A stretch of DNA of 55,818 nt from Phycisphaerae bacterium (lineage in GTDB: Bacteria; Planctomycetota; Phycisphaerae; Sedimentisphaerales; Anaerobacaceae). Shown here one piece after another: positions 16,911 through 53,201 of this stretch. The notes under the pieces were generated by a model. That model was not told the DNA's origin. It made no database searches and saw nothing but the letters and a program-made list of their open reading frames with translations. The DNA is taken from assembly GCA_017993835.1 (NCBI GenBank), contig JAGOLX010000041.1:1-55818 (forward strand), read 5' to 3'. The position numbers and the translations under genes are program-made. Numbering within the stretch: the first letter of the stretch is position 1; every line of letters begins with the position of its first letter.

Positions 16911-17714
16911 ATGCCCAGGAACGGGAAGATCGCAGTCCTTGCGGCTGCAAGTCTTTGTCTGGTTTCGCTTTGCGGGTGCAAGTGCAATTTCCAAGTGTCC
17001 GTCGCCAAACCCAAGATCCAGCGGCACGGGTCGGTGATCGCCATCCCCGAGGCGAGCATCGGGGAGTACAAGAAGCTCCATGCGGAGACCTGGCCCGGCG
17101 TGCTCAAGATGATCGACAAGGCCAACATCGACAACTACTCGATCTATCTGGGCGAGGTCTCGCCAAGCGAGCACTACCTGTTCAGCTACTACGAGTACAC
17201 AGGCAAGAACTTCGACGCCGACATGGCCAAGATGAAAAAAGACAAGACCACCCAGGAGTGGTGGAAGAACACAGACCCCCTCCAGAAGCCCCTGCCGACC
17301 GCAAAAGAAGGCGAATGGTGGGCCAGTTGGGAGGAGGTGTTCCACCACAGCGGGCCGGCGTATAAGGCAAGCCAGGTGAAGTCGCGTCACGGCTCGATCA
17401 TCGGGATGCCCGAGAAGAACATCCTCGCCTACACCCAGATGCACGCGGTCGTCTGGCCCGGCGTGCTCGCGGCCATCGAACGGGCCAATATCCGCAACTA
17501 CTCCATCTACCTGGGCCAGATCAAGCCCGGCGAGTACCTCCTGTTCAGCTACTTCGAGTACGTAGGCGACGACTTCAAGGCCGACATGGCCGGCATCGCC
17601 GACGAAGTGACCAAGACCTGGTGGAAGTACACCGATCCGCTGCAGGTCCGCCTGCCCGGCACGCCGGACGGAGAACAGTGGAAGGGGATGGAGGAGGTGT
17701 TCCGCACAGATTGA
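16911..17714 (+). CDS. Lipoprotein with two L-rhamnose mutarotase-like domains
   Basis: A 267-residue protein with CAGGAGG before the ATG at 16911. The N-terminus is a signal sequence ending LVSLCGC, a plausible lipobox. Two homologous copies of the RhaM fold follow (about 35-130 and 145-265). Each has HGSxIxxPE, a (H)A..WPGVL helix, NYSIYLG, LFSYxEY and a closing EEVF motif. RhaM interconverts alpha and beta anomers of L-rhamnose and is usually a single-domain cytoplasmic dimer. A tandem, exported version beside a symporter suggests anomer conversion in the periplasm before uptake. The substrate is not proven by sequence. Confidence 0.85.
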   Translation: MPRNGKIAVLAAASLCLVSLCGCKCNFQVSVAKPKIQRHGSVIAIPEASIGEYKKLHAETWPGVLKMIDKANIDNYSIYLGEVSPSEHYLFSYYEYTGKNFDADMAKMKKDKTTQEWWKNTDPLQKPLPTAKEGEWWASWEEVFHHSGPAYKASQVKSRHGSIIGMPEKNILAYTQMHAVVWPGVLAAIERANIRNYSIYLGQIKPGEYLLFSYFEYVGDDFKADMAGIADEVTKTWWKYTDPLQVRLPGTPDGEQWKGMEEVFRTD

Positions 17715-19176
17715 CGAGGGCTGGTGGCTGACATCGGCAGTTTTTTGCTTGCCCAAACGTGAATGCAAGGTACAATAACGCCGATAGTTGCGCAGAGGCT
17801 CCTGCGCAGGGTCGCTCGGTGCAGTCCATCGCACAGACGGCCCTCGGAAGAACCACACGGAGAGGTGTCGGAGTGGCTGATCGAGCTGGTTTCGAAAACC
17901 AGTGTGCCCTTACGGGTACCGCGGGTTCGAATCCCGCCCTCTCCGTTATTCCTGCGAGGCATTCTACAAGTCCCTGTACTTCAGGGACTTGTAGCGTTTT
18001 CTCGATTCTTGACGGGCTCATTGCCCTCAAGTTGCCCTCAGACGGAGAATCTTCCTGCCCCTCATCGGCTCCCATACCGGCCGATTCCGCCAGGGCCTCC
18101 ATGGCCCGTTGGCTATCCTCATCATGCAGGTGATAGTACAGGTCCAGCATCTGCGATGAACTGTGCCCCAGCCACGCCAGGGCCTTGCGGTATGCGACGT
18201 TGTGGTTGGCACAGAGGCTGGCGAAGTGATGACGAAACGAATGGAGCTTGTACTGCCTGGGGTCCTCGAAGCCACAGGTCTGACAAAGCTCCTTGACCTG
18301 TTTGAGCAATTGACGCTCGGTGATCGCCTTGAACACCCTGCCGGTCCGCTTCGCCGGTGACCCCAAGAGTGGTGTGATGGCGATGTGGACGGGCACGAAA
18401 CGGTCATCCTTATCCTTTGTCGTCCCGGCTGAACCGCCTCGCCTCACGTGAATCATCGTGAAGCGGCCACCGCCCGCGTGCAGATCGTCCCACTGCAACT
18501 GCTCGACCTCCCCAATACGCAGGCCCGCGTAGCCCATCAGGGCACAGGCGAGTTTCTCCTCGCCCTTCGCGGCGTCGATCAAAGCATTGACCTGCCCGGA
18601 TGTGAAACAGGGCTGTGGTTGGGCCTTGGCCTTGGGGAAGGAGGCCCCGGCGAGCCGGTAGTCCCTCAGCAGTCGCCGCCGCCACGCCCACTTGAACATC
18701 TGCTTGGCCAGGACCACGGCCGCTTCTACGGTCTTGTCAGCGTAGCCCTGCTCCTTCAACGAGGCTCGATAGGAATACAGATCATTCTCCGAGAACCGAC
18801 TGGCCAACCTGATCGGTGCCTCCAGGCAGTAGTCCTCCAGCTTGTTCAAGTCGGCTCGATACTTCCACTTCGTCTTGGGTGCGACACCCTTGGCGTCCAT
18901 GGCCTGGAGATACGCGACGATGAGGTCTTTGACGGTGAGATGGGACTCCGGGACCCGTACGACCCCGGACTCCAACTCCTGCTGAAGCTCGATCGCCTTG
19001 CGTCGGGCCTCGGCCCGGCTGCGAGTACCAAGGTTGCGGCACACCTGTCTTCCGTCGAGGTCCCGGTACTCGGAGGCGTAGCACTTGGACGTGCAATTCT
19101 TCTTGTTCCGGTAGTATACACGACGGCCGATTGTGACACTCGTGCCGTCGACGCGTTCGCGGTCTGCGAGTTTCAT
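17575..19176 (-). CDS. Tyrosine recombinase (integrase) with read-through tail over attL
   Basis: A 533-residue frame. The ATG at 19176 has GGAG nine bases upstream. A lysine/cysteine-rich N-terminal arm, a SAM-like core-binding domain (about 80-170) and the catalytic domain follow, with the RHRHY set: Arg220 in YAGLRIGEVE, HSFRHH (His312, Arg315), His338 in LGHSSS, and Tyr347/348. The core protein ends near residue 400. The frame then continues through the hairpin, antisense through the whole tRNA-Ser (ERAGFEPAVPVR) and into the lipoprotein gene, stopping at 17575. This tail is almost certainly a by-product of integration: the original stop would lie across the attachment core. It would integrate and excise the element at tRNA-Ser. 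Confidence 0.88.
   Translation of the reverse strand: MKLADRERVDGTSVTIGRRVYYRNKKNCTSKCYASEYRDLDGRQVCRNLGTRSRAEARRKAIELQQELESGVVRVPESHLTVKDLIVAYLQAMDAKGVAPKTKWKYRADLNKLEDYCLEAPIRLASRFSENDLYSYRASLKEQGYADKTVEAAVVLAKQMFKWAWRRRLLRDYRLAGASFPKAKAQPQPCFTSGQVNALIDAAKGEEKLACALMGYAGLRIGEVEQLQWDDLHAGGGRFTMIHVRRGGSAGTTKDKDDRFVPVHIAITPLLGSPAKRTGRVFKAITERQLLKQVKELCQTCGFEDPRQYKLHSFRHHFASLCANHNVAYRKALAWLGHSSSQMLDLYYHLHDEDSQRAMEALAESAGMGADEGQEDSPSEGNLRAMSPSRIEKTLQVPEVQGLVECLAGITERAGFEPAVPVRAHWFSKPARSATPTPLRVVLPRAVCAMDCTERPCAGASAQLSALLYLAFTFGQAKNCRCQPPALVNLCGTPPPSPSTVLRPACRAGGPAADRCTSTRSWSLRRRCRPCRP
17749..17776 (+). promoter_or_regulatory. Putative promoter of tRNA-Ser
   Basis: TTGCCC (17749-17754), a 16-base spacer and TACAAT (17771-17776) lie about 80 bases upstream of the tRNA on the same strand. 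This is a reasonable sigma70-type promoter. Confidence 0.5.
17859..17945 (+). tRNA. tRNA-Ser (CGA)
   Basis: An 87-base class II tRNA. The acceptor stem GGAGAGG (17859-17865) pairs with CCTCTCC (17938-17944), with discriminator G at 17945. The anticodon stem CTGGT/ACCAG encloses loop TTCGAAA, giving anticodon CGA, which reads UCG. A long variable arm (GTGCCCTTACGGGTACC region) and T arm GCGGG-TTCGAAT-CCCGC complete the fold. CCA is not encoded. An integrase gene on the opposite strand begins its catalytic region just downstream, so the 3' part of this gene is the likely attachment site of the mobile element. Confidence 0.96.
17964..17994. terminator. Perfect 13-bp stem-loop after tRNA-Ser
   Basis: CTACAAGTCCCTG pairs with CAGGGACTTGTAG around a TACTT loop and is followed on the + strand by CGTTTT. 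It could terminate the tRNA transcript. It also lies inside the 3' part of the integrase frame on the other strand. Confidence 0.6.
18021..18040. repeat. Short direct repeat near attL
   Basis: TTGCCCTCA occurs at 18021-18029 and again at 18032-18040, an 11-base period. It lies about 80 bases inside the element from the tRNA, where arm-type integrase sites often occur. It is also within the integrase coding frame, so chance is possible. Confidence 0.35.
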
Positions 19177-19297
19177 ATCATTCACTCCTACATCGGCCCG
19201 TCACGCCGAAGGCGCAACGGCAGTTGGTATTTGATGGCTCCATTGTAGCGCATGTTCAATCCAGCGCAACTATTTTCAAAAAATCTGACAGGATTCG

Positions 19298-30849: not shown

Positions 30850-30893
30850 ACGCAGTCCTCGCACAATTGAAATGAGACTATTAAAACCCCCGA

Positions 30894-35025: not shown

Positions 35026-35029
35026 CGTG

Positions 35030-35542: not shown

Positions 35543-35553
35543 GGCTGCCTCCT

Positions 35554-38500: not shown

Positions 38501-39315
38501 TAGCCCTTGCGTTGGTCGGGCGGCAGCGTGATGGGATCGAAGCCAGTCGGCATCTGCTCCCGCTTGCCATCGGCGATGACTCTGTACCACGTGCCTTTGC
38601 GCCCGCCCACGCCATCAGTTACATAGAAGGGCTGGATCTGCGGCTTGACCTCAGCCTCGATCTGATCGAAGAACGCCTTGACCTCCTTCGGATCAGTGCA
38701 AGCCAATTCGTTCTTGACGATGAACCAGGCAACCGGGTTGAGATCGACGCCGGCAACCTGGAAGCCCAGCCGCGAACCCTCGACCAACGTGGTGCCGCCG
38801 CCCATGAAGGGGTCAAGCACCTTGATGTGCTTGAAGTTCCCGGCAGCTTGGTGGTTCGCGTAGTACGTGTCCCATACGACCTGATCCGCAGTATCTTCGT
38901 CGATGATCGGCTTGCCATCCGGGCCAAGCATGGGTTTCCCATCCGGATGGCGGCGGATCGGAGCCTCCATCGCTGCGGCAAGAAGCATCGCCCGGAACAC
39001 GCACGAGCGGCGACGCGCCCACCACTTGCTCATCTGGTAGATTGGCTTGCCCGCGTTGCCCTCCAGCGCCGAGAGCGCATTGATCGGCACCAGCGGGAAA
39101 TCGACCTCCAGGCACGTCTTGGGCCGGTTAGGGTCGGAGAAGTCAGGCACCTTGACCTTGAGCGGCTTGCCCAGGTTCGGCGGCAAGTGGTCTTCGAGTG
39201 CGGAATCAGCAGTAGCCGATTTACGTGCGCGTGGCTTTTTCGCCGGCTCCACTGGCAATTCAATGCCAGGAAAAGCTGGGGTGTCGTCGCGTGCAGTATT
39301 CTTAGCCTTGGACAT
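35554..39315 (-). CDS. DUF1156-type adenine-specific DNA methyltransferase (PglXI-like)
   Basis: A 1253-residue protein. The N-terminal DUF1156 segment reads DFPLVPINALSALEGNAGKP then IYQMSKWWARRRSCVFRAML (about 72-111). The S-adenosylmethionine motif is LDPFMGGGTTLVEG (167-180). The catalytic motif TDPPFGDN lies near residue 820, a DPPF variant of the DPPY of N6-adenine methyltransferases. Between them are several CxxC pairs (CPKCGTWSG, CGSCGQLADLLE, VYCLQCYDPQRDA) that likely bind zinc. In BREX type 3 such a protein methylates host DNA so that the system spares self. It is preceded by the PglZ-like gene (6-base gap). Confidence 0.9.
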   Translation of the reverse strand: MSKAKNTARDDTPAFPGIELPVEPAKKPRARKSATADSALEDHLPPNLGKPLKVKVPDFSDPNRPKTCLEVDFPLVPINALSALEGNAGKPIYQMSKWWARRRSCVFRAMLLAAAMEAPIRRHPDGKPMLGPDGKPIIDEDTADQVVWDTYYANHQAAGNFKHIKVLDPFMGGGTTLVEGSRLGFQVAGVDLNPVAWFIVKNELACTDPKEVKAFFDQIEAEVKPQIQPFYVTDGVGGRKGTWYRVIADGKREQMPTGFDPITLPPDQRKGYQYEGPEVIYTFWAKHGPCIKPGCGHRTPVFRSPIVATKKLGVKYIPCTCKNKQCGIAFDAELGDARVAPDAEHVVLENEHPYTVVSPGFAKRLLEYSSGNKGDKQFRIQELSDVVETETGFNCPKCGTWSGQTVRDVLAMHRQAMRVADIDKKHFGILPARSGKKPVYCTLLIDPEWLKGSPGEQTGKEVGGFIDAPIDSTEVWCRERLKDLRLIEIRGVAGGIVPDAGDENPATTDENVMDEDGSDDADSRKSWLPETIVLRDGRKIETGRGTVPRRSAFTCGSCGQLADLLESVKGYTNRVRMKTQDATAQRSAPVMVYCLQCYDPQRDAEGHPYGGRYFKVPDAGDIERLIAAEREWATRREADLKGFWPRSALPYTWMTHHLNGGIPNWGFTHWYKFFNPRQLLVHAQLLMAIRKSARPIVERDFVLGAFQQYLRNQNMFCFWNYGADKMEPFFSQAHYHPKQQVVENSVFGLLGRGNWLSSVGTLVEAAGWASVPWEKTEAIEEGQTKSGHLQTEDPIVPGSCSAFQASATEMPTDWVGSFDGVITDPPFGDNVFYGDLSNFFYVWLRLALKDRYPREFGPEFVPRFQEAVADRSRFPNAGTGDGGVTDAESEEQVMSAANTAYQRIMTDCWAECRRVMKDGGVLAFTFHHSADEPWMSILQSLFDAGWLLEATYPIRSDETKGEGGQFGSRKIEYDIIHVCRKRLEEPKPVSWPKMRQWVKAEMARLRPLLESFKNRGLSDADIRVILRGKALEFFSRHYGTVTISASGGEDSVLSIRDALLGINQLLDELSGTPGERPPTIVQPVVYQYLRLFGAKVSYSRDEVSKLLRGTAIQPRDFEHTGSTPWTVEEDKVVTRVPIYDRFKKMRQRSRRELKTELDQAHFLIGAAMPVKEGDTGVNIEKELERETFLIRPGVEALLDWYTKTPAGPDEPGVPKAAGIALQLLRAAFEAHRAKIAAEQPWLNEEWRASADTV

Positions 39316-39321
39316 TCAGTC

Positions 39322-40344
39322 TCACAATGGTGGCAATTCGATAACGGGCACGGCCGCCTCCAACAAAGACAGACCGCGATGGCACAATGTTGGGAATCCG
39401 CCCCGCACTTTCCATTTTCGTTGGCCCAGCACGACGAGCCAAGTTCCACCGGCATCGGCAAAACGCAGAACGCGCGGCGGCAGGTCCCGCCGGGGCCAGG
39501 GCTGGGCCGGGTCTTCGCGGACCGCCCGCTGTGCTCCAAACGCACCGGCGAACAATCGGATGCTCGCCTCGTCGCGGACCTCGCTGGAGAACTCGGACGC
39601 CGTTCCGTAGCCGTGGTCTCCAGCGATCAGCAGCCGCCGTCCCTGCCGCAAGCAGTTGACCAACTTCCAGAAATCCTCGGAGGTCAGCGTCCGTTTCGCC
39701 TCGGCGGCAACGACGGCGCCGCCGTCCGGACGCTCAGCGTGCAAATGAATCAGGGGCTCATCAGGCCATTTGTGCCAGATGAAGAGGCGGGCTTTTGCCG
39801 GGATGCGTTCCACACAATCGGCAAAGGGCTCCTCCAGCACGTCGGTGTGTACGTCCTGCCCTGCGAAGATGAACGACTGCGGAGGCTGGTTGTTGAAGAG
39901 CTTGGAGCGGCTTGGCAGGCCCAGTGTGGCCGCAAAACCATCTGTTTCAGACGGCACCTGACTGCCGCGTACGGCGATGCTCACAGGTGCAACGCCATGC
40001 TTGCGAGCGGTCGCAACGATCAGAGGCAATTCGCGGAGAGACAGGCCGTCCAGGATCAAGATCGCGGTCCCGGCACTGGCGGCAGGCGCGGCCCAGAAGC
40101 TGCGAAGTGCATCCGTGACTTTGGGTGCTGCGGCGGGAAACGACTGCCACAGATCCCAGGCGCTCTCGGCCAGGAGCCGGTCGGGAATGATCGTCTCGCG
40201 ATGCAGCGCCGCCGGGGACGGTGCGGATAGCGAGATTTCGCCCAGACGCGTGAAGATATCGGTCCAGACGGCCGATGCGGGACGCTCCGACAGAATCAGC
40301 GATTCCCAACTCTGAGCAGCGGAGGTGGTCGGCGCAGATGTCAT
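39322..40344 (-). CDS. Compact PglZ-like alkaline-phosphatase-fold protein
   Basis: A 340-residue protein whose ATG overlaps the DUF499 stop (ATGA). Metal-site motifs of the PglZ/alkaline phosphatase superfamily are visible: AILILDGLSLRELPLIV (Asp99, first metal/nucleophile strand) and LLIAGDHGYG (Asp243-His244, second site). A helical N-terminus and a short beta C-terminus flank the fold. BREX PglZ proteins are commonly about 650-900 residues, so this is half-size, with the core only. Its place between the ATPase and the methyltransferase differs from BREX type 3, where pglZ follows the helicase. The assignment rests on two motifs and context. Confidence 0.68.
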   Translation of the reverse strand: MTSAPTTSAAQSWESLILSERPASAVWTDIFTRLGEISLSAPSPAALHRETIIPDRLLAESAWDLWQSFPAAAPKVTDALRSFWAAPAASAGTAILILDGLSLRELPLIVATARKHGVAPVSIAVRGSQVPSETDGFAATLGLPSRSKLFNNQPPQSFIFAGQDVHTDVLEEPFADCVERIPAKARLFIWHKWPDEPLIHLHAERPDGGAVVAAEAKRTLTSEDFWKLVNCLRQGRRLLIAGDHGYGTASEFSSEVRDEASIRLFAGAFGAQRAVREDPAQPWPRRDLPPRVLRFADAGGTWLVVLGQRKWKVRGGFPTLCHRGLSLLEAAVPVIELPPL

Positions 40345-43133
40345 TTGCCATTGCCTCCTTGCGGGTCAGGATTCGATGTGATTTGCAGCTCCGCCAGCAA
40401 CTTCATTGGCAGCCTGGTGCACAGCTCTCGCAACTCCTTGACGGTCAGACCACGCATGGTCAGCGTTGCGATGGTCAGGCACTCCTGATCGGGCAGCCCC
40501 CACCGTTCGATGTCGCCCAGCAGATTGATGCCGCTCTTGGCGCCATTGGATTGGCGGATGATCGGCGTGGGAGCGACAGGCACAACAGACACGGGCGGTA
40601 CAGTGGTCGGTGGGGTCGTTACCCCGCCGGCGGACGTCACGGGCGGCGTGACCGGTGGCACAACCGGCGTCGTGGGTGGGAACAGAATGCCGGCGCCGGC
40701 CGGCGGTTTGACTGGGCCAACCGCGACGCCACCGCTGCCGACCTGGCCGGGCAAGCCAAGCAGAACCTCCTCGAGTTCACGGCCTGTGCGGAAGCAGGAC
40801 CGTTTCAGCCGGGCAAGAGTCTGATCCGGAGTCTCGCCGGGTTCGGCTCGATGCCACGTGTTGCCGACGTTGAGTGCGATACGATCTCTTGCCACCACGC
40901 TCATCGTCTGTTCGTACATCGCGTGGTCGCCCAGATACGGGATGGCATCCTGATCTGGCTTGGCGGGCGGCTCGCGGAGCTGGGCCAGCACCTGCTTCAT
41001 GGTCTCCCCGCGCTGGGCAGCCGCAATGATGAAGGGTTCGAAATCCTCCGGGGCGAAGTAGTTGGCCCGAACGCTATCCTCCACTGCTTTGGCCATTTCC
41101 TTGGCGGCAGTCACGCACGGCTCTGTGGCGAAGACGCATGTTGCGGGCTTCTGGAAGTTCCAGCGACGGAGCAGTACATAGCGGTCGAACCGATTGCCCA
41201 GTTCACGCCGCAGATCCGTATCGAATTTCTTGAAGATGCCGGCGTAGACCGGCTCGTTGTCTTTCCACGCCTTGGCCAAATAGGCACAGCGAGAGAGGCG
41301 GCGGAGGTCCGCGTCATCGTAAATACACGGCGAACCGGCCTTGGGCAGCAGGAATCGCACCATGTTTCGTTTGATCGTGACGTGCTTGGCCAACCACGGA
41401 CCCAGCGTGGTGTTGGCATCAGCAGGTGCAACGGGGATGACCAGCAGAACCGGCTTATCCCACCGCTCCGGCTGGTCTGGGGCAAGGATGTTGGCCCACG
41501 GCGATGTCTCCCAGTTGGGGTCGAGCACGATGACGCGCGACGGCGGTTCGCTGGTCGCCTCCGGTGATCGAAGCTCGTGTTCGAGGACTTGGCGAATGAA
41601 CGCCTGGTCTTTCATTACAGGAAGCAAGCCTGGCACAGTCGGCGAATCGGGCTCGAACAGTTTGTCGTTCTTCGCCATGGCCCTGACCTTCGACAGCGGG
41701 TTCTCTTCCAGCTTGAAGCAATATCGCTTGTCGGCAGTGCCGACCTCGTGGATGTTGAAGCTGTTCTCAACGATGGTTGCCAGTTCCGCGGTGAAGCCGT
41801 TGTCGTCGATTGCCCTGGATCGGGTGAGGTCAAGCTGCAATTCCTCACGGGTGCCACCAAGAACGTTGGTCGCTGAGAGGGAGCGAATCCAGATACCACT
41901 GATGGCCTCGCGAGCGTGCTCGGCCTGAACACCGGCAGCTTGCAGGGCGTCGAGATTCCGGATTGCCTTCTCCCGCAGGTGCTCCTGATCAGCCGTCGTG
42001 GCGAAGGAATCCATGAGTGTGAGGACACCGCACTTGTCGTCATTCACGAGGAAATCGCAGGGTGTCAGCAGAGGGACGTGCTCACCGCGCGACCGGAATA
42101 GCTCGGCCAGCACGCGGATGAGATCTCGCTTGTCCTGGGCGGATTCAGCCATGAGGATATGGTCATCAAGCAGCATCAGCAGGTCGGGCGAGAACGGCCA
42201 TGCATCAACCACTTCGCGGCGCAGCCGCTCCTTCTCTGCATCGGACTTGTCAGCATGCAACAACCGTACCCGCTCCTGAGCATAAGCTGCGACGAGCTGC
42301 TCAATGGCTGGCGCGGCAAATTGTGCGCGGTTCTCGAAGAGACGATGCAGCAGCAGCCGCTTGCGATCTTCTTTCGCCGTTTCGCCTTTGAAATCGATGA
42401 CCACGGGGCCGATGCGATGAATCTGCCGATACCCCTCCGTCGTGGTGTCCCGGACGGATACGATCAACATGAGGAGGTCTGGACGCTCCTTGGCCAGTTC
42501 AGACAGGATTTGGACGAAGTTGAAAGCCCATTGCCGGCGCTTTGCGCCGGTGTCACCGGGATCGTCATGCAGGCCGTCGAACCATGTCTGGAATTCGTCG
42601 AGGATGAGAGTGGTCGGACGTTCCGCAAACAAGTCCTGCATCAGGGATTTGGCCGGAATAGACGTGCCTGACGCTTCATGCTTGCCCCGGTAGTAGGTGC
42701 CCCTTGGGTGCCGGTCAAAGACCAAGTCCCACAGCGTGCGGTATTCCTGATTCGAGAGGGTTTCCGTAATTGCGACGAAGCCCTTCGGAAGTACGAGTTC
42801 TGCCAAGGGTGCGAAACCGGGTTTGGTACCCCATTCCCTCGCCCAGCCCTGAACCTTGTCCGGCGATTCGATGGCGTGGTGGAGCAACGCCATGATGTGA
42901 GATTTGCCGCGACCACGTTGGCCGAGAAAGACAAGTGGGCATCCTTGTGCCCGAGTGGAGACGCCACTGAGGGCTCTTTGCACATCGGTTGTCGGGTACG
43001 TGATTCCCAGAAGCTCAGCGGGGTCGCGCTGTGTCCAGCCTGTGCCTTGTCGATTGCGCAGCTCAATAGCGGTTCCCCGCATGTGGGCGGACAAGAATTC
43101 CTTTCGCAACTCAAGCGACAGATTCGCAGGCAT
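40341..43133 (-). CDS. DUF499-type ATPase (BrxC/PglY-like)
   Basis: A 930-residue protein. The ATG at 43133 has AAGGGA upstream. Walker A is FLGQRGRGKSHIMALLHHAI (70-89) and Walker B PTTLILDEFQTWF (173-185). A helical middle part follows, and near residues 790-860 a Pro/Thr/Val-rich linker (PPTTPVVPPVTPPVT) precedes a small C-terminal domain. DUF499 proteins are the large ATPases of BREX (PglY/BrxC) and related DUF1156 cassettes and probably form the motor or scaffold. It is the first gene of the operon, 80 bases or so from a strong promoter. Confidence 0.88.
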   Translation of the reverse strand: MPANLSLELRKEFLSAHMRGTAIELRNRQGTGWTQRDPAELLGITYPTTDVQRALSGVSTRAQGCPLVFLGQRGRGKSHIMALLHHAIESPDKVQGWAREWGTKPGFAPLAELVLPKGFVAITETLSNQEYRTLWDLVFDRHPRGTYYRGKHEASGTSIPAKSLMQDLFAERPTTLILDEFQTWFDGLHDDPGDTGAKRRQWAFNFVQILSELAKERPDLLMLIVSVRDTTTEGYRQIHRIGPVVIDFKGETAKEDRKRLLLHRLFENRAQFAAPAIEQLVAAYAQERVRLLHADKSDAEKERLRREVVDAWPFSPDLLMLLDDHILMAESAQDKRDLIRVLAELFRSRGEHVPLLTPCDFLVNDDKCGVLTLMDSFATTADQEHLREKAIRNLDALQAAGVQAEHAREAISGIWIRSLSATNVLGGTREELQLDLTRSRAIDDNGFTAELATIVENSFNIHEVGTADKRYCFKLEENPLSKVRAMAKNDKLFEPDSPTVPGLLPVMKDQAFIRQVLEHELRSPEATSEPPSRVIVLDPNWETSPWANILAPDQPERWDKPVLLVIPVAPADANTTLGPWLAKHVTIKRNMVRFLLPKAGSPCIYDDADLRRLSRCAYLAKAWKDNEPVYAGIFKKFDTDLRRELGNRFDRYVLLRRWNFQKPATCVFATEPCVTAAKEMAKAVEDSVRANYFAPEDFEPFIIAAAQRGETMKQVLAQLREPPAKPDQDAIPYLGDHAMYEQTMSVVARDRIALNVGNTWHRAEPGETPDQTLARLKRSCFRTGRELEEVLLGLPGQVGSGGVAVGPVKPPAGAGILFPPTTPVVPPVTPPVTSAGGVTTPPTTVPPVSVVPVAPTPIIRQSNGAKSGINLLGDIERWGLPDQECLTIATLTMRGLTVKELRELCTRLPMKLLAELQITSNPDPQGGNGK

Positions 43134-43219
43134 ACAGACTCCCTTACGAGTCACAGAAGCCCGACCGGACCAGACAACGGACTCCTGCGACCTCCAACCA
43201 TGAATTTCATCAAGAAGAG

Positions 43220-43343: not shown

Positions 43344-45008
43344 TCATAACAATGCCCGGCCGTCTGCTGTCAGTTCAATCGCGACCATTCGGCCCATATG
43401 GGTCATCACCGTCTTCTCCTGGATCAGCCCTGCCTCTATGAGCTCGTCCTTCACCTGCTGCCCCTGTCTGACGGAGAGGCCGAGCCGCTTGTATCGAGCC
43501 GCAACTCCACTGCCAGGGTATTCCAGAATATCCCTGAGGAAGAGTGTTTTGACGTCCGTCAAGGCCCCGGGTGTATCCGCGGGTACATCTGAGACGGCGG
43601 CAGTTATGTCTTCGGTCACGATAGGTCCCGCGTTCATGGAGACAGACACGTCAGTCTTCATCTGCTGCCTCAGACAGTCGTCCGTAATATGACCCTTATC
43701 GATCATGAACTCTGGAACGAGGATCTGGAACGGCCGTGCGATCCGCCCCTGGAGCTTGACCACGGCCTGACCGATATCCAACATCCCGAGGAGGTCTCTC
43801 TCTTTGTCGAGTAGAAGGCATTGGCTTATGGCGTTGATGTCGGTCTTATGCTTGAGGCCCAGGCAAATCGTGGTGTAGGTGTTTCCCAGGGCAGGCAGGC
43901 TGATCTTGGAGGGGTGCTGATCCAGAAGAATCAGACTCTCCCCAAACTCCCTGATTTCCCGAAAAACGATCTCCATCACGGACTGGCCTCCGACCAGACT
44001 GTGTCGTTCATCCGACAGGATATGGTGGGCCTCTTCGATGATTATGGCGTGCTTGAAGCTCTCCCGCCGTTGCTCCGTCATTCTTCTGTGATGGATCCAG
44101 AGCAGCAGGGCCTCGGCGAAGAAGACCTTGTCCGATTGGGTGAGGGCGTCCAACTCAAGGATAACGGATTTCTCCAGGATATGCTCGAGGCTCCTATTGC
44201 TATCCGCGTTCAGCAAGTGGTCCATGTCGCCAAAACACAGCGAGGACAAAGCCCTCAGAGTCGAGGACAGCCAGCCGGCCTCTCTGCCGCGGCTGTCCAT
44301 CTTCCGGGCCTTGAGGAGGACATCTTTGAAGGTCGGCCACCTTTGGACCGTGCCATCATAGACGCCGGCCTCTTCGTAAACGGCATCCACCGCTTGCTGG
44401 AGCAAGAACAGGACACCGTTGCCCAGGCAGTAGGAATGCGCGATTACCTCATTGAGCTTCTTGAGCCACGTCTTCGGATTGGTGCCGGGTGGTGGGATCA
44501 GTGGATTGAACGTCAGAGGGGCAACGTTCCGCCCTATGGTGTAGACCTCAACGCCTCTGAATTCGGGCAAAGCCAGCAGGTCTCGATAGTTCCTCTTCCA
44601 GTCGAACACCAGGAAGGGCTTGCTTTTTTTTCTGAGTTCCCGGAGTAGAATGAAACCAATATTGGTCTTGCCCGCCCCTGAACGGCCAAGGACTGCCACA
44701 TGCTGGATCCACTCATCTTCGCGAAGGCCAAACTCGTAGAGGTTCTTCCCTGCGTAGTGCACATTACCTATGGTGTAGTCACCCTTGGCCTGCGTCTGCG
44801 ACGGCGGTATCAACACCATGTCGCCTTCCCCCAATTCATGGGGAAGATGCCGGGCGGCCAACACCTCCAGGTAATGTTGAATCTGCGCTCTGCCGTCATC
44901 GTCCTCAGCGAGAAAGGCGTCATAGATGGCCTGCGCTCTCTCGCCCAGAATGGGCCTGAGCTGAAAACACATCTGCCGGACGTTCGCCAGGTTAGTACTC
45001 TCGACCAT
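43344..45008 (-). CDS. HerA/DUF87-type ATPase
   Basis: A 554-residue protein overlapping its upstream neighbour by 17 bases. A beta-rich HAS-barrel-like N-terminal part (MVLIPPSQTQAKGDYTIGNV) leads into Walker A VAVLGRSGAGKTNIGFILL (about 104-122). The Walker B region is HAIIIEEAHHILSDERHSLV (about 328-347), followed by an arginine-finger-like FREIREFGESLILLDQHPSK. This is the HerA/DUF87 DNA-translocase pattern known from archaeal repair and from defence systems. The C-terminal 80 residues resemble a winged helix (ILEYPGSGVAARYKRLGLSV... VKDELIEAGLIQEKTVMTHM). With the 187-residue partner it forms its own two-gene unit. Confidence 0.85.
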   Translation of the reverse strand: MVESTNLANVRQMCFQLRPILGERAQAIYDAFLAEDDDGRAQIQHYLEVLAARHLPHELGEGDMVLIPPSQTQAKGDYTIGNVHYAGKNLYEFGLREDEWIQHVAVLGRSGAGKTNIGFILLRELRKKSKPFLVFDWKRNYRDLLALPEFRGVEVYTIGRNVAPLTFNPLIPPPGTNPKTWLKKLNEVIAHSYCLGNGVLFLLQQAVDAVYEEAGVYDGTVQRWPTFKDVLLKARKMDSRGREAGWLSSTLRALSSLCFGDMDHLLNADSNRSLEHILEKSVILELDALTQSDKVFFAEALLLWIHHRRMTEQRRESFKHAIIIEEAHHILSDERHSLVGGQSVMEIVFREIREFGESLILLDQHPSKISLPALGNTYTTICLGLKHKTDINAISQCLLLDKERDLLGMLDIGQAVVKLQGRIARPFQILVPEFMIDKGHITDDCLRQQMKTDVSVSMNAGPIVTEDITAAVSDVPADTPGALTDVKTLFLRDILEYPGSGVAARYKRLGLSVRQGQQVKDELIEAGLIQEKTVMTHMGRMVAIELTADGRALL

Positions 45009-46555: not shown

Positions 46556-47221
46556 CTACGGGCAGGCCGCTGCGACATTCAGCTCCGAAGCCAGCAGATT
46601 CAGTTGGATATCGGGTTCGATGGGCAGTCGCCGCAGGTACTTTGTGAACTGGGAGACCATCAGGCCGGCTGCGATATTGGCGCAGTAGATCGTGGTCTTG
46701 GCCGTGCACGGGCCGGCAAAGGCCTCTTCCGTGCGGAACAAGGTGGTTGGATAGTGCGTCCTCGACTTGGAGTCACAGACGGTCAGGACCCGCAGGACCT
46801 CGGCGCTCATGCGGGCATCGCAGAAGAAGCCGACCTTGTCCTTGACGGCTTCCCAGATGAGCCGGCGAACGTCGATGCTGTCCACACAGGTGAAGACCGC
46901 CGTGCCGATCTCCATACTGCGGCGGAATCGCTCGGGCATGGCGGCAGTCTCCAGATTGGAGTTCACCTTCATGCAGAGTGCAGCCGTGGCTTGGACCTTG
47001 GGCTTGCCAAGGTCTTCTTCGAAGTAACCCTGGCTGGCGAGGTTGGACACCTCGATCAGATCAAAGTCCACCAATTGAAGCGACGGGATTCCGATGGCCG
47101 TGAGCTGTAAGGCCGCCTGGCGGCCAATGGCGCCGACGCCGATAACCGTCGCCTTGCAGGCGGCAATCCGTTCGGCCGGCACGATGTCCTTCTGGCGGCT
47201 GTAGCGTTCTTCATCTCTCAT
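46556..47221 (-). CDS. E1-like (ThiF-family) activating enzyme
   Basis: A 221-residue protein. It has the Rossmann motif [15 protein letters not shown] (26-40), then [18 protein letters not shown] (50-67) with the acidic and Asn/Gln residues used for adenylation, Lys73, and [10 protein letters not shown] (Asp114). The segment [20 protein letters not shown] gives Cys172 and Cys180 as candidate thioester cysteines. The zinc-binding CxxC pairs of ThiF/MoeB are absent. It would adenylate the C-terminus of the cassette's ubiquitin-like protein and pass it on. ATGA overlap with the JAMM gene shows tight coupling. Confidence 0.9.
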
Positions 47222-48021
47222 AGGAAAAGCACCTCCTGTTCATTGTTCCACAGATCCGGCCGTTCAGCCAGCTCATCGAGGACCAGTTGCCGTTCGAGCG
47301 GTCCCAGCTTCTCCAGCTCATTGATGAGACCCTCGGGCGTGGCGCAGTTCTGGACAGGGGCGGCTTCCGCGGGTTTTGGGCCTGCCAAGAGGGGCGGACT
47401 GAACCAGTCCACGGCCCTGACATGCGCCGCGTACTCGGCATCCCAGGCCGGGCGGTCAGTTGCCCCGAATTCCCGGGAGTAGTCCACCTCGGTCGGGATC
47501 GGGATCTGTCCGCCCGGACCGATATTGAAACTCAGGCGGGCATAAGTGCTGCTATCCCGGGCGACGATGGCCATGATGGCCCACTGGCACGACCCGAAAA
47601 CCCGTTTGAACGTCTCCTCGTCGACAGAGCTGGGCTCAGGCGAGTCGCCAGGATGGGAATGCAGCCACACGCGGGCGAATTGCTCGGGCTTTCGGCCGAG
47701 GTCCACTTGCTCATCGAAGAACCGGCTCACCGCTTCGTCGTCGAACTTGACGCTGACGGGACTGACTTCCTGGCTGACTGTGACGAAGTCCTGTACATAC
47801 AGCAGGTCATCGGCCGCCGAGATGCCGAACCCGCCGACCTCGTTCTCGGACTTGTCCCGCAGGTACAGCAGCTTGGCCCAGGCCGTCGGGCTGAATCGCA
47901 GCGTGGGCGCCGCCGGCTGTTCTTCTTCATCCAGCCAATCGTCATCCCAGATTGGTTGGCTGAGGCTGACTTGTGTTCGGGATCTCATCTGTCTCTTCAA
48001 TCTTCTGTTCTTCATCTTCAT
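47218..48021 (-). CDS. JAMM/MPN metalloprotease (deubiquitinase-like)
   Basis: A 267-residue protein. The ATG at 48021 follows AGGAAG, inside the end of the E2-like gene (80-base overlap). The JAMM motif is intact: Glu61 in [27 protein letters not shown] with His121, His123 and Asp134. In related systems the enzyme trims the Ubl precursor or removes Ubl from targets. The Ubl here ends in Ala-Ala after Gly, so precursor trimming is possible. The C-terminal 90 residues are an unassigned extension with two helices. Confidence 0.9.
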
Positions 48022-48982
48022 TTTCGTTCTTCCTTTCTTCCCTGCAGTCGGGGCATAGTCCGTCTGTGATACAGGATTCGCAGCAGGTCGATTCACAGTC
48101 CGCGCACTTGGTCTTGGCGCACGCGGGGCAAAGGGATCGTTCGCAGATTTCGCAGACACTGGCACACTCGCCGCAGACGATCTCGCCACAGTTGGTGCAG
48201 ACCCTGGAGCAGTCGTCGCAAATTGGGTTACCGCAGCGGCTGCAGGAGTACACGTTCTCGTCGTCCATCACGTAGCCGCAGTCATAGCAGGGTGTGCCGT
48301 CCCAATCCGCCAGGGGCACGTAGGGGCTGTCCGGGTTGTAGGTCTGAAGGATACTGCGGACCATGCTGAAGAAGTCCGCCAGTCTGCCCTGTTCCACGGC
48401 TGCCCGGATCGCCGCAGCACCGTCGCCTTCGCACAGTCCATCATTGCTGACGTGCGGATGAGTGATCGCCTCATCTTTCGCAGAGGGATGGGGCTCCAGG
48501 GCGAAGACGTGGTACGGGACAAAGTGCTGCATCTGGTGCAGCTTGCCCAGGGACAGGGCAATCCGGAAGGGACCCAGGTAGGTATCTTCCAGCGTGATGG
48601 GCTCCGTGATCACGGAGAGGGAGTTCTCTTCCCCATCGAATTCAATCCCGCCGAATTCGGCGCTGGCTGCCCTGATCTCCTGGACGAGATCCGACAGGGA
48701 GGGAATCCCTCCTTGTCGCTTGCTCAGAAGCAGTTCGAGTCGGGAGACCGTGTACGGGATGTCGCTCAACTGCCTGGCAACGTCTACACAGCATTCTTCC
48801 GCTGCGGCGAGCCAATCGCGGGACAGGGCCAGTCCAAGCCTGCCCGACTGGTGGACGATCGTGTGGATGGCGCTCGTGAACAGGCCCAACTGCCGTATGC
48901 ACTCGACATAGCGGGTCTTCTGGAACATAAGGAGGGAATCTCGAATGTCCCCGGCAACACGTATGAGTTCTTTGTCGTTCAT
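47942..48982 (-). CDS. E2-like conjugating protein with C-terminal zinc ribbons
   Basis: A 346-residue protein with AAAGGA before its ATG. Residues 1-110 are helical. Residues about 115-222 read like a ubiquitin-conjugating fold: [29 protein letters not shown], then [20 protein letters not shown], with Cys184 at the position of the E2 active site, and [19 protein letters not shown] after it. Residues 232-313 hold about ten CxxC pairs ([43 protein letters not shown]). They would bind several zinc ions, perhaps as a built-in E3-like or substrate-binding module. The C-terminus is acidic. Placement between Ubl and JAMM supports the E2 role. Confidence 0.75.
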
Positions 48983-49001
48983 GTTAGATCCTTTCCAATG
49001 G

Positions 49002-49040
49002 AAAAGGGCATCTGCCTATCGCCAAGACAAGCAGATGCCC
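49002..49040 (-). terminator. Intrinsic terminator/attenuator between Ubl and E2 genes
   Basis: GGGCATCTGC (49006-49015) pairs with GCAGATGCCC (49031-49040) and on the minus strand is followed by TTTTCC. It lies in the 84-base gap after the Ubl stop. Partial read-through would give more Ubl than E2, JAMM and E1. Confidence 0.75.
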
Positions 49041-49066
49041 TCGTTGACACTCGCGGCCTGCAACGA

Positions 49067-49288
49067 CTATGCAGCGCCCTCGATCTTTACTGGGGTCACT
49101 GTCACGCGGTCGTTCTCCTGGAGGACGTAGTCCCGCGGGACCGGCTGGCGGTTGACGCGGATGAGGTAGTCCTCGGGCCGTTCGTGGGGCATCCTGTCCT
49201 TGAAGAACTGGGCCACCGTTGTCCCATCGTTGACGTCCACGTAATCCGCATAGCCGCCGCCCAGGTTGTTGATGTAGAGTATACGCAT
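49067..49288 (-). CDS. Ubiquitin-like beta-grasp protein
   Basis: A 73-residue protein with AAAGG upstream. MRILYINNLGGGYADYVDVN and DGTTVAQFFKDRM are the first two strands and helix of a ThiS/MoaD/ubiquitin-type beta-grasp. LIRVNRQPVPRDYVLQENDR then VTVTPVKIEGAA gives the remaining strands. The tail ends Glu-Gly-Ala-Ala; activated Ubls usually end Gly-Gly, so either the chain is trimmed to the Gly by the JAMM protease or a single-Gly end is used. It is first in the E2/JAMM/E1 cassette. It could in principle be a sulfur carrier, but the E2 neighbour argues for protein conjugation. Confidence 0.8.
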   Translation of the reverse strand: MRILYINNLGGGYADYVDVNDGTTVAQFFKDRMPHERPEDYLIRVNRQPVPRDYVLQENDRVTVTPVKIEGAA

Positions 49289-49480: not shown

Positions 49481-49834
49481 TCAGCCCTTCTCACAGACTC
49501 CGAAATCCGCGAGGAACTGGAGCAACCGGGCCAGATCGCACTTCATGAACGGCGCATCTGCTGCGGTCTTCTCGAACGTGCCGTCAAACCATTGTGCGAT
49601 GGGCAAGGCCGGCAAGGTGGCGGTCAAGTCCTGGGCCTCAATGGCCAGTCGCTCCAGCTTTCGGGAGATGCGGCAACGCCGGAGCGTCTCGTCGAGCGAA
49701 TCGGCGGCGGGCTCGGGATAGCTCAGCAGTTCCTTGAGCATCCTGATCTCCTCGGCGAACGCGAGGGACTGCTCGCCTCCGGCGTCGAGACTCTCCAGGA
49801 TAGCCTCGATTGTGTCATACACTTCGTTCAGCAT
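49481..49834 (-). CDS. Hypothetical acidic helical protein
   Basis: A 117-residue protein with AGAGGAG before its ATG. Nearly all helical and acidic (MLNEVYDTIEAILESLDAGG, RCRISRKLERLAIEAQDL, ending LARLLQFLADFGVCEKG). No family recognised. It lies between the zinc-knuckle genes and the Ubl operon on the same strand, so it may be an accessory or target of that system. Confidence 0.55.
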   Translation of the reverse strand: MLNEVYDTIEAILESLDAGGEQSLAFAEEIRMLKELLSYPEPAADSLDETLRRCRISRKLERLAIEAQDLTATLPALPIAQWFDGTFEKTAADAPFMKCDLARLLQFLADFGVCEKG

Positions 49835-49877: not shown

Positions 49878-50156
49878 TCACTGTTCAGACAGGTCGATCC
49901 GCGTCAGTCGGCCCCTGGAATCGATGACATCCAGGACCGGCGGCATGGATTGCGGGTCCTTCATGATCTCGTGGGCCCGTTCGGCCGCCTGTCTTGCGTT
50001 CATGGCGTTGACATCGATGGTGTAGACCACGCGGTAGAGCGGTTGCGACCCCCTCTCTTGGGGCGGGGGCGAAATGGCGAATCCCTGCAACGGGGACATC
50101 CACTCGGCCCGTGCTTTGCCTTTCTGGCACTGCGGATTTCGACAACAGTCCTTCAT
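49878..50156 (-). CDS. Small protein with N-terminal cysteine knuckle (copy B)
   Basis: A 92-residue protein with AGGAG before its ATG. The first ten residues, MKDCCRNPQCQ, match MEKYCQNPLCE of the next gene upstream. The rest is a small alpha/beta domain: YRVVYTIDVNAMNARQAAER, AHEIMKDPQSMPPVLDVIDS, then RGRLTRIDL. This helix-plus-strand pattern recurs in plasmid accessory proteins whose job is unknown. Only one half of a zinc site is present, so zinc binding would need a partner or a dimer. Confidence 0.6.
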   Translation of the reverse strand: MKDCCRNPQCQKGKARAEWMSPLQGFAISPPPQERGSQPLYRVVYTIDVNAMNARQAAERAHEIMKDPQSMPPVLDVIDSRGRLTRIDLSEQ

Positions 50157-50192: not shown

Positions 50193-50570
50193 TCAGCCCA
50201 GGTTTACGGATGCAGGAAAGACATCCACGCCCAGGCGTTCATTGTGCTCGGCAATCCAGTCGCAGATACCGGGTAAGTCACCAGGACCACGGTAACCTTC
50301 CTGGGCTCTCATGTACCGAACGAGGTCTTTCACCGCCCTCCGCCTGTTCATGAAGACTCCAGTGTGGACAGCGGCGCCCCCGTTGCTCACATGCAGCACC
50401 CAGACCTTCTTGGGCATCGACATCATCCTGCCGTGCTGGACGCCCCAGGAATATGCTTCCTCGCACACGGCACAGAGGGCCCGCTTTTGGTCCGATGGTT
50501 TGTCCACCGATACCGGTACGATCTTGGTAGACTCATTCTCGCAGAGTGGATTCTGGCAGTACTTCTCCAT
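50193..50570 (-). CDS. Small zinc-ribbon protein (copy A)
   Basis: A 125-residue protein with GGAGG before its ATG and only three bases after the DUF2958 gene stop. The N-terminus YCQNPLCENEST... ALCAVCEEAYSWG forms a full CxxxxC / CxxC zinc ribbon. The C-terminal half (VWVLHVSNGGAAVHTGVFMN, RRRAVKDLVRYMRAQEG) is an alpha/beta domain. It shares its first motif with the 92-residue protein downstream, so the two look like paralogous adaptors. Confidence 0.62.
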   Translation of the reverse strand: MEKYCQNPLCENESTKIVPVSVDKPSDQKRALCAVCEEAYSWGVQHGRMMSMPKKVWVLHVSNGGAAVHTGVFMNRRRAVKDLVRYMRAQEGYRGPGDLPGICDWIAEHNERLGVDVFPASVNLG

Positions 50571-50573
50571 AGG

Positions 50574-51479
50574 TCAGTCCTCCTCATGGTCATCTGGGGA
50601 TCGGAACATCTCGGGCGCAATCTCATCGAGTGTCTTCGGCTCCCACCAGAGGTCCCGCTCGACCGGCAGGCCCAAGGGGCCCCGGACACTCTCAAGTTCC
50701 GAAAGGGCTACATAGCCAAGTTCCTTCTCGAGTCCATCCACGAGGCCGAAGAAGTGGAAGTCCACCTCCTTGCCGCTGCCATCCGTGATCGGGGAGCCTT
50801 CGGTCAGATACCAGGTGAACGAACCATCGGGTGTGAACAGCTTCATGTGCACGATAGCCTTTCCACCCTTGTCCTCCTGGGCATACAACGGCGGCAGCTT
50901 CTTTCGTATCTCCTTAGAGAGCAGCTTCATGCCCCGCATCTTGCGGCCTGCCGATCGGGCGCCGGCCTGGATGACCCTGTTGCCGCTGATGCAGACGACG
51001 TGCTCTTTGGGCAAGTCCAACTCTGTGGCCAGTCCGCGCAGAAACTCGGCCATGTTGCGGTCCTGTTGGTCCCGCGAGATCGGGTCCGACTCACACGCCG
51101 GGATCGGCGTGCCGATCACCTCCACCTGTTGGGGCTCCAACTCGATGAGTACGCGGCCGTTCTCGTCAGAGTACCACTCGACGTACGGGTGGTTGACGTA
51201 GTCCACCGGCGGCAGTCCCGCCGTGATATCGCCGACCTTCCCGACCTGCCGGACTGCAAATCCCTCCATGGCTGCCTTGGCATCTGCCGGCGGTTGTGTC
51301 TGGGATGCATCGTGCGTGAGATGAACCTTCGCGCCGCGGATATCCCGATGGAAATCTCCTTCGAGATTCAAGGTTACGGTTTCGTTCATTCCGGCGAACC
51401 GCATCCATCCGGTGACCTTGCCGAGTTGGGTGTTGTCGAGTTCGCCCTCGATCAAATATGGACTGATTCTCCATGCCAT
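50574..51479 (-). CDS. Two-domain plasmid-type protein with C-terminal DUF2958
   Basis: A 301-residue protein. The N-terminal domain (about 1-130) is beta-rich and unassigned (LGKVTGWMRFAGMNETVTLN, PYVEWYSDENGRVLIELEPQ). The C-terminal domain (about 190-290) matches DUF2958: MKLLSKEIRKKLPPLYAQED, KLFTPDGSFTWYLTEGSP, HFFGLVDGLEKELGYVALSE and RDLWWEPKTLDEI. DUF2958 proteins are typical cargo of conjugative plasmids and ICEs and have no proven function. The fusion is unusual for a family whose members are often single-domain. Confidence 0.75.
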   Translation of the reverse strand: MAWRISPYLIEGELDNTQLGKVTGWMRFAGMNETVTLNLEGDFHRDIRGAKVHLTHDASQTQPPADAKAAMEGFAVRQVGKVGDITAGLPPVDYVNHPYVEWYSDENGRVLIELEPQQVEVIGTPIPACESDPISRDQQDRNMAEFLRGLATELDLPKEHVVCISGNRVIQAGARSAGRKMRGMKLLSKEIRKKLPPLYAQEDKGGKAIVHMKLFTPDGSFTWYLTEGSPITDGSGKEVDFHFFGLVDGLEKELGYVALSELESVRGPLGLPVERDLWWEPKTLDEIAPEMFRSPDDHEED

Positions 51480-51566: not shown

Positions 51567-53201
51567 CTACTGGACGGCCGAGAGCTCCGGCGGTTGGAGC
51601 ATCTGGGCACTGCCGTCCTTGTACGAGATCCAGACCTTGCCGCTGGACTCGACGGTGATCTGCTTCCACTGGATGCCGAAGTCCTCGATGCACTCCAGCA
51701 GTCTCTGACGCATGTATTCGCCGGGTCCCAGGATGCCCGCCCAGAACAGGTTCAACTGCTCCTCGAAGTCGGCCAACTGCGTGCCGTAAGTGTCCCCGTC
51801 CTCGGAGTATCCGCCCAGGTGATACCAGATGTCCGAGGCGTCAAGCCGTTCCCTTGCCTCCAGGGTGACCAGGATCTCCACGGTGCACCAGGAACGCCGC
51901 TTGGCGGTTTGCGGATGCCTGCGAACGGCCATCGGCACGGCCGAGCAGTAGACCCTGCCATCGCTCGTGTGCGCGATGATTTGCAGGCTCTCGACTGCGA
52001 TGAGAGTCTCGGAGCACATGGGCTCTCTGGCGAGTTCCTTGCCGGCCTTCAGCCTGGCCCGCTCCACCACAGGCAACGTGGCCCAACTGTAGCCGTCGTA
52101 TATGGGGGAGATATCCACTACGACGAACGGGCTCTTGAACTTGCCCAATGCCGACAGCAGATGGGCGTTCGCTTCGTTCGGGTCATCGGCGTCCCGGCAG
52201 GCCGGGGCCAATCGATAGCACTTCTCCAAAGGCAGGTCCGGAGGTTTCACAACCTGCACCGGCTCGATCGGTTCGTCAGAGAGGAGGCCAACCTGATACA
52301 CGGGCTGTGCCTCCGGCAGCTCGATGCCAAGCTCTTTCGCGCGGCGGTATTCACTGAACTTGAGTTTGTGAGAGCCCCGTTTCTGGATGTACCTGTATGC
52401 CTCGATCTCCAAGACGGCCTTGAGCCTCTCGAAGGCTTCGTTCTCTACCAAGCAGGTTCGCGCCGGGAGCATCAGCCGGATTCCGGTCGGTTCACCGGTC
52501 AAATCCACGAGGAACTGAAGGTGTTCGCTCACCGGCGTGTACGTCCACAAAACCACCTGCCCGTGGAAATTGACCAGCACATCCTCCGTATAGTGGTTGT
52601 GTTTCCAGTTGCTGTGCCATCGACTCAGGGCATCGCATTCCCGCACCTCGATCCTGCAGCCGAGCTCAGAATGGGGCGCCGCCACTCCCGATGAGACGAA
52701 TGGCTCGCTGACGCATAGCCTGCCGTCCACGGTCACCTTCAAACCGGTGAAGACCGCGTGCCTCTCGACGTTCTCGAAGAGCCATGGCGTATCTTCAAAG
52801 GCAAACTGCGTGCCCTGGATTGACTCATCCGCCGTCTGGACTTCGACAGCTTTGCCGGTCCATCCCTTGCCTGCGATGACCACCGTTCGGGTGCCAGAGC
52901 GGATCTGGACCTCTCGCGGCGCCAAGCAGAAGATGCCCACGCCTGCGGGGTCTTCCACCTGGTCGAGACTCTCATCCCAGCCGGACCTGCCGAGGTCCAA
53001 CAGTGCCGAGAAATCCGCAATGCCCCGGCCATTGTCCCGCACGGTGACTCGGCCATCCTGATTTACGATATGGACTTCTGTTGCCCCGGCCCGCCTGGCG
53101 TTCTGCAGGATCTCCATGATTCTGCCGTCCAGGGCGCCGGTGAACAGCCGTTCGGCTTTCGAGAGCAGGCGCGGGTTTACCTTCGCTCGTATGGTGTCCA
53201 T
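51567..53201 (-). CDS. Stand-alone GHKL (Hsp90-like) ATPase
   Basis: A 544-residue protein. The Bergerat ATP site is clear: N-box RIMEILQNARRAGATEV (Glu30, Asn34), G1 box TVRDNGRGIADF (Asp56), and PAGVGIFCLAPREV (85-98), as in Hsp90, MutL and gyrase B. The segment LDQVEDPAGVGIFC suggests a lid. The following 430 residues are alpha/beta with no transmembrane or histidine-kinase features (no H-box or receiver). It is cytoplasmic and of unknown role; GHKL ATPases of this sort occur in phage-defence and plasmid gene sets. It heads the group that includes the DUF2958 and zinc-ribbon genes. Confidence 0.82.
   Translation of the reverse strand: MDTIRAKVNPRLLSKAERLFTGALDGRIMEILQNARRAGATEVHIVNQDGRVTVRDNGRGIADFSALLDLGRSGWDESLDQVEDPAGVGIFCLAPREVQIRSGTRTVVIAGKGWTGKAVEVQTADESIQGTQFAFEDTPWLFENVERHAVFTGLKVTVDGRLCVSEPFVSSGVAAPHSELGCRIEVRECDALSRWHSNWKHNHYTEDVLVNFHGQVVLWTYTPVSEHLQFLVDLTGEPTGIRLMLPARTCLVENEAFERLKAVLEIEAYRYIQKRGSHKLKFSEYRRAKELGIELPEAQPVYQVGLLSDEPIEPVQVVKPPDLPLEKCYRLAPACRDADDPNEANAHLLSALGKFKSPFVVVDISPIYDGYSWATLPVVERARLKAGKELAREPMCSETLIAVESLQIIAHTSDGRVYCSAVPMAVRRHPQTAKRRSWCTVEILVTLEARERLDASDIWYHLGGYSEDGDTYGTQLADFEEQLNLFWAGILGPGEYMRQRLLECIEDFGIQWKQITVESSGKVWISYKDGSAQMLQPPELSAVQ

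Follow-up and report, generated by a model that had tools for sequence, protein, structure and literature searches.

A complete, reversible ubiquitin-like conjugation system appears to be encoded on integrative elements of Planctomycetota, a reading to which we assign a probability of about 0.7 from sequence comparison and structure modeling. The window, the whole stretch of DNA analyzed here (55,818 nucleotides), is the entire contig 20 of a 6.37-Mb Phycisphaerae genome and carries four adjoining genes for a ubiquitin-like modifier (Ubl), an E2-like protein, a JAMM metalloprotease, and a ThiF-type E1. Few systems of ubiquitin-like conjugation have been described in bacteria, and the origin of E2–E3 pairs is an open question. 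All four parts are separate, small, and intact in this cassette, and a Cys-rich module is attached to the E2, which raises the question of whether an E2 from a bacterium might bring along its own E3. Testing that idea takes three purified proteins. The ties to integrative elements and phage genomes raise a further question, namely, whether such systems first served mobile elements and not the defence of the host.

Gene Layout and Integrity

The original prediction of four consecutive minus-strand genes was confirmed at the level of the open reading frames, in the order Ubl, E2-like protein, JAMM protease, and E1. The features of the cassette are listed below.

49067..49288, minus strand: Ubl, 73-residue beta-grasp (ThiS/Ub-like) modifier; Pfam ThiS E = 6e-4, below the cut-off; sequence alignment
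47942..48982, minus strand: E2-like protein, 346 residues, with N-terminal helical hairpin, UBC domain, and Cys array
48722..48982, minus strand: residues 1–87 of the E2-like protein, a long N-terminal helical hairpin; helices 3–54 and 58–87 in the model
48290..48709, minus strand: UBC (E2) domain, residues 92–231; structure model and fold matches
48452..48460, minus strand: HPH, residues 175–177 of the E2-like protein
48431..48433, minus strand: presumed catalytic Cys184 of the E2-like protein
48044..48289, minus strand: array of ten CxxC pairs, Cys232–Cys313, directly behind the UBC domain
47218..48021, minus strand: JAMM metalloprotease; Pfam Prok-JAB E = 8e-5, just below the cut-off; nine-sequence alignment
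46556..47221, minus strand: E1, single ThiF-type adenylation domain, 221 residues; Pfam ThiF E = 7.5e-23
46706..46708, minus strand: presumed catalytic Cys172 of the E1

Stop and start codons had been predicted to overlap throughout. This holds for the E2 and JAMM genes, which share 80 nt counted from the JAMM ATG at 48021, and for the JAMM and E1 genes, which share 4 nt (ATGA). The Ubl and E2 genes are instead separated by a gap of 84 nt. The values of dN/dS between close relatives lie mostly at ~0.03–0.26 for all four genes and indicate purifying selection; the exception is one Ubl pair at 0.58, which has almost no differences. Since dN/dS is low and more than 40 loci encode these four proteins in an identical order, the cassette is not a product of chance.

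Distribution among Genomes

A protein search of 61 related genomes gave seven positives, among them the genome of the window itself and one false match (L008). The false match, found in L008 and L020, is a phosphoribosyltransferase-like protein with zinc motifs. Full-length relatives of the E2-like protein within these 61 genomes are 39–61% identical to it. When each species was represented by one genome, a profile scan returned 32 loci, nearly all labelled Planctomycetota and chiefly Phycisphaerae; the others include a SAR324 record and a bacterium without assignment. When a sample of 294 Planctomycetota genomes was examined, the cassette was detected in nine, seven of which belong to one family outside the class of the window. 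A single complete genome of this second family holds six copies.

Two checks had been named beforehand, a UBC fold around Cys184 and the conservation of the four genes together, and the cassette passed both. Every locus on a long enough contig retains the order Ubl-E2-JAMM-E1, and these loci, almost all from Planctomycetota, number more than 40. In the E1 tree, cassettes from a single genome are spread over different clades, a pattern that fits horizontal movement. The E2, E1, and JAMM proteins had no match in 72,556 plasmids, the JAMM protein had none in the phages searched, and nothing was obtained for the Ubl in viral contigs by tblastn. No family in the databases searched describes the four genes as a set.

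UBC Domain of the E2-like Protein

No E2 family was recovered for the E2-like protein in the Pfam, NCBIfam, and PDB profile searches. A model of the full-length protein, built from nine sequences, gave a mean pLDDT of 75 with values below 50 at the active site and no meaningful Foldseek match. Because this model was poor, the UBC region was folded alone using an alignment of 35 relatives, which gave a pLDDT of 88 and a pTM of 0.84. The best 50 matches of this model in a Foldseek search of the PDB are all E2s or E2 complexes, with probabilities up to 0.96, TM scores of ~0.5, and a weak best E-value of 0.021. Nearly all rows of the VIA comparison are likewise E2s, and the match to UBE2S has a Z of 6.6 (rmsd 4.0 over 124 residues), which is under 8 and in the middling range that the tool warns is common. 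In an hhalign comparison with human E2s, HPHV..C of the cassette profile was aligned with HPNI..C (HPNINSNGSIC) and NPDSPYV with NPDDPLV, although the match itself is weak (probability 8.7%, P 0.0038). HPH, Cys184, and Trp227 are invariant in 36 of 36 sequences.

Each of these scores is weak when taken singly, and E2 membership therefore rests on the agreement of several measures. The predicted UBC fold around Cys184 is shown by sequence and model together, and the putative catalytic Cys stands behind an HPN-like motif. At the C-terminus of the E2 in many of the loci L034–L038 and L072–L084, a short recurring motif is present, for example QSDSVGETRISA or QPVCLGQA, and it overlaps the JAMM gene.

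Cys Array of the E2-like Protein

About ten CxxC pairs had been predicted at the C-terminus of the E2; ten were counted. All 20 Cys residues are invariant in 34 relatives, and in the non-viral loci the array is fused right behind the UBC domain, with ~eight pairs in two of them (L081 and L082) and one truncated copy. The E2 of L055 lacks the array; this record (IMG/VR 3300005613_000166) carries a terminase and a divergent Ubl-E2-JAMM-E1 set. From L055, L081, and L082 it follows that a cassette of this type does not strictly require the array. On a 191-kb contig labelled viral, a second protein with CxxC pairs lies between Ubl and E2 (L054:7120-7974).

The best solved-structure match of the Cys-array profile is the Midline-1 B-box (E = 2.9e-4). 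FYVE and RING matches are weaker, and no RING match is significant in the profile search (E 0.03 or worse). The ten pairs would make up about five zinc sites, and the array is plausibly an E3-like module, the built-in ligase of the original prediction, or a substrate-binding module.

Ubl, JAMM Protease, and E1

The Ubl was verified to have 73 residues and to end in EGAA, in agreement with the predicted Gly-Ala-Ala tail. The core has the ending [KR]-[IVM]-x-G-A in 44 distinct Ubls, and behind it comes a tail of 0–35 residues that is not conserved. The Gly-Ala is also kept in the divergent copy of L055, which ends KGA and brings the relatives to 45 in all. A constant Gly-Ala before a freely varying tail is the pattern expected of a protease-trimmed precursor, and the JAMM protease is encoded by the next gene but one. 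The conserved Gly bears Ala and a tail, and maturation would consequently be needed; the mature end is predicted at Gly71 (KIEG/AA). The terminus has a single Gly followed by Ala, rather than Gly-Gly, which counts against a ubiquitin-like reading.

The JAMM protein contains the motif E...H-x-H-P-x6-S-x2-D, and Glu61, His121, His123, Ser131, and Asp134 are invariant in the nine-sequence alignment. The intact HSHPG...D noted originally is thus matched by H-x-H-P-x6-S-x2-D. Its likely role would be both maturation of the Ubl and deconjugation. The assignment of the E1 to the ThiF type was upheld by the Pfam match. The protein carries GxGxxG, and Cys172 and the catalytic residues are invariant in the nine-sequence alignment.

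Carrier Element and Neighboring Genes

The original prediction also placed the four-gene set on a bacterial element, and its location on a mobile element was borne out by the genes listed below.

17575..19185, minus strand: tyrosine integrase adjoining tRNA-Ser, presumed left edge of the carrier element; Phage_integrase E = 5.8e-15
17858..17946, plus strand: tRNA-Ser(CGA), presumed attachment site
43344..45008, minus strand: HerA/TraG-like ATPase, near the cassette in relatives too (8 loci); DUF87 E = 6.5e-9
49481..49834, minus strand: small protein upstream of Ubl, co-conserved in several Phycisphaerae loci
49878..50156, minus strand: small protein, co-conserved upstream in 13 loci, clustered with 49481..49834
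50193..50570, minus strand: small upstream protein, co-conserved in part of the loci
50574..51479, minus strand: DUF2958 protein, co-conserved with the cassette in 18 loci; PF11171 E = 5e-12
51567..53201, minus strand: GHKL/HATPase-like protein, co-conserved with the cassette in 11 loci; weak HATPase_c_3 match

The integrase, tRNA-Ser, and cassette occur together in L039, L052, L078, and L083 as well, which makes five genomes with the window. In the search for the other attachment site, the sole second copy of the tRNA-Ser 3′ end was part of another complete tRNA-Ser; the contig ends at 55818. No terminal overlap that would indicate a circular plasmid was detected on the contigs tested. The neighbors kept in the Phycisphaerae loci are the DUF2958 protein, the HATPase-like protein, the small proteins, and the HerA/TraG ATPase. 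In the second family (L072–L084), a different upstream module is kept, consisting of DUF1257-like and DUF2997-like proteins, three small proteins, and two proteins that we take, from reading their sequences, to be TOPRIM-like and a Ycf46-like AAA ATPase. Orc1/Cdc6-like AAA proteins with weak Cdc6_C and Cdc6_lid matches are located near the cassette in L014 (10995-12179), L015 (19055-19900), L016 (1425-2621), L032, and L042.

Three other groups of minus-strand genes were observed in the window. A cluster resembling the Hma defence system at 32203-43154 comprises an SNF2 helicase (32203-35025), a DUF1156-type methylase (35554-39315), and an AAA ATPase (40341-43154), with E-values of 9.5e-99 for HmaA and 1.8e-33 for HmaB. 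An Hsp70-GrpE gene pair is carried on the mobile element at 21880-24091. The region 27312-30864 encodes a 925-residue protein with M48/M56-like peptidase and prenyltransferase-toroid regions, which follows a zf-HC2 anti-sigma-like protein.

Proposed Mechanism and Role

In the proposed pathway, the JAMM protease would cut the Ubl behind Gly71 and so take off Ala-Ala in the window and as many as ~35 residues in relatives. The single-domain E1 would adenylate Gly71 and then hold the Ubl as a thioester on Cys172, from which it would be moved to Cys184 of the UBC domain, with His177 of HPH standing in for the Asn of HPN. The fused zinc array might serve as a built-in E3-like or substrate-binding module, such that no separate ligase gene would be needed, and the JAMM protease could also strip the tag as an eraser. 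No match to PF00227 (proteasome and HslV) was obtained in the 99%-complete host genome, with 10 of 14 controls positive in the same search. Since the host genome shows no proteasome-fold protease, the tag is unlikely to be a proteasome signal and is probably non-proteasomal.

The role that we favor, at roughly even odds, is regulation or upkeep of the carrier element. The chief competitor, to which we give somewhat less than one chance in three, is anti-phage defence, in which phage or host proteins would be tagged upon infection as by Bil and CBASS Cap2. The patchy distribution (9/294 planctomycete genomes), the mobility, and weak PADLOC E1-E2 and JAB matches are all in keeping with defence, and the Hma-like methylase/helicase/ATPase cluster adjoining at 32203-43154 is the reason to keep it under consideration. 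However, neither the Ubl nor the E2 matches any PADLOC model, and the stable neighbors in relatives are of the element type (DUF2958, HATPase, HerA, integrase, and Orc1/Cdc6-like AAA) with no known effectors among them. The related cassette of L055 sits in a record with a terminase, and an element backbone would account just as well for the genome with six copies. It is very improbable that the genes serve a ThiS/MoaD-type sulfur-carrier or cofactor pathway in place of protein conjugation. The ThiS match of the Ubl (E 6e-4) and the ThiF match of the E1 are what such a pathway would predict, and JAMM domains occur in sulfur-carrier operons too (PMC1779556). The operon nevertheless includes an E2 with an intact active site, the Ubl ends in Gly-Ala instead of Gly-Gly, and no rhodanese, SirA partner, or cofactor gene was detected among the neighbors scanned.

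Two further alternatives concern the E2-like protein within the conjugation reading. The Cys array might bind DNA or RNA, or just stabilize the protein, with the E3 being separate or absent. Many Cys4 zinc modules bind nucleic acid, and the missing RING match and the array-free E2 of L055 point the same way; against this stand the 20 Cys residues invariant in 34 relatives, the direct fusion to the UBC domain in non-viral loci, and a best solved-structure match that is the B-box of an E3 ligase. We consider this alternative possible but the less probable one. The invariant HPH in place of HPN raises the specific possibility that the E2 is UBE2W-like and links the Ubl not to lysines but to the alpha-amino group at the N-terminus of proteins, given that HPH is a hallmark of that family: it is a unique property of Ube2w among eukaryotic E2s, and the family modifies N-termini (PMC4630614). 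The HPH of Ube2W was checked against PDB entry 2mt6. The motif may have arisen independently, however, and the N-terminal activity needs an intact Ube2w C-terminus (PMC4630614), whereas here the Cys array follows the UBC core; N-terminal attachment is rated as unlikely. Equally speculative is the combined proposal that one bacterial polypeptide acts as E2 and E3 at once. With its HPH-type UBC domain and an array of five zincs, it would join a single-Gly Ubl, matured by the JAMM protease, to protein N-termini, and this activity would be central to a widespread family of integrative elements.

Comparison with Known Systems

The original prediction noted a resemblance to PRTRC cassettes and to Bil systems. 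The PRTRC cassettes of plasmids and ICEs encode Ubl, E2-like, JAB, and ThiF proteins on mobile elements. The kinship proved to be distant: the E1 scores 27.6 bits where the PRTRC_ThiF cut-off is 144.75, and the cassette E2 has no PRTRC match. No PRTRC ParB was found in the cassette cluster; only matches below the cut-off were obtained, on other contigs, and the element may extend off the contig. The best PRTRC-type ParB match in the genome (G000:C80:4746-5273) scores 123.9 bits against a cut-off of 278.6. Close kinship to Bil was not supported. Both BilABCD and the cassette consist of Ubl, E2, JAB, and E1 genes, but the Bil models have no match to the Ubl, E2, or JAMM protein, and the E1 matches BilD only weakly (E = 2e-4) and less well than the generic E1-E2 models. 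Two Ubl domains are present in BilA, a CEHH motif in BilB, and an inactive and an active adenylation domain with a Cys domain in BilD (PMC11354881); the cassette has one Ubl domain of 73 residues, an HPH...C E2, and one adenylation domain in a 221-residue E1. By the features tested, the cassette appears to be neither PRTRC nor Bil.

Five prokaryotic operon types (6a–6e) with JAB, E1, E2, and Ubl parts were described by Iyer et al. in 2006, who suggested that such operons act in a manner similar to addiction or restriction systems (PMC1779556). The cassette resembles these types in its clustered JAB, E1-like, E2-like, and beta-grasp genes and in its sporadic, mobile occurrence. No type as described there combines four separate proteins with a UBC domain that runs on into ten CxxC pairs, and the cassette E2 has the upstream His that is missing from the type 6d E2 (PMC1779556). 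The archaeal Caldiarchaeum ubiquitin operon likewise combines Ub, E1, E2, a zinc-finger (RING) protein, and precursor maturation by a JAMM protein (Rpn11) (PMC5654768). The RING E3 is separate in that operon, whereas the cassette has its Cys array joined to the E2 and only one Gly at the Ubl end. The HPH ahead of the catalytic Cys, in place of HPN, is shared with the UBE2W family, although identity to Ube2W (2mt6) is 13% over 112 aligned residues (Z 6.0), and the fused Cys array and N-terminal hairpin are found only in the cassette protein.

The nearest named E1s are those of crAss-like, Flavobacterium, and jumbo phages, at 28–31% identity. In the crAss-like and Flavobacterium phages, a JAMM-like gene and an HSH...C protein adjoin the E1, but the phage E2-like proteins have no match to the cassette E2 profile and no Cys array. 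The E1-like, JAMM-like, and HSH...C genes lie side by side in L089 (2577-6708), L090 (1640-6672), and L088 (2802-6681), with a possible beta-grasp protein upstream, and in jumbo phages the E1 is accompanied by a protein that ends in SGG. Prokaryotic RING-associated operons were reportedly surveyed by Burroughs et al. in 2011, and that survey may hold an earlier mention of this cassette. On the present comparison, the cassette may be regarded as an extension of the known Ubl-operon types.
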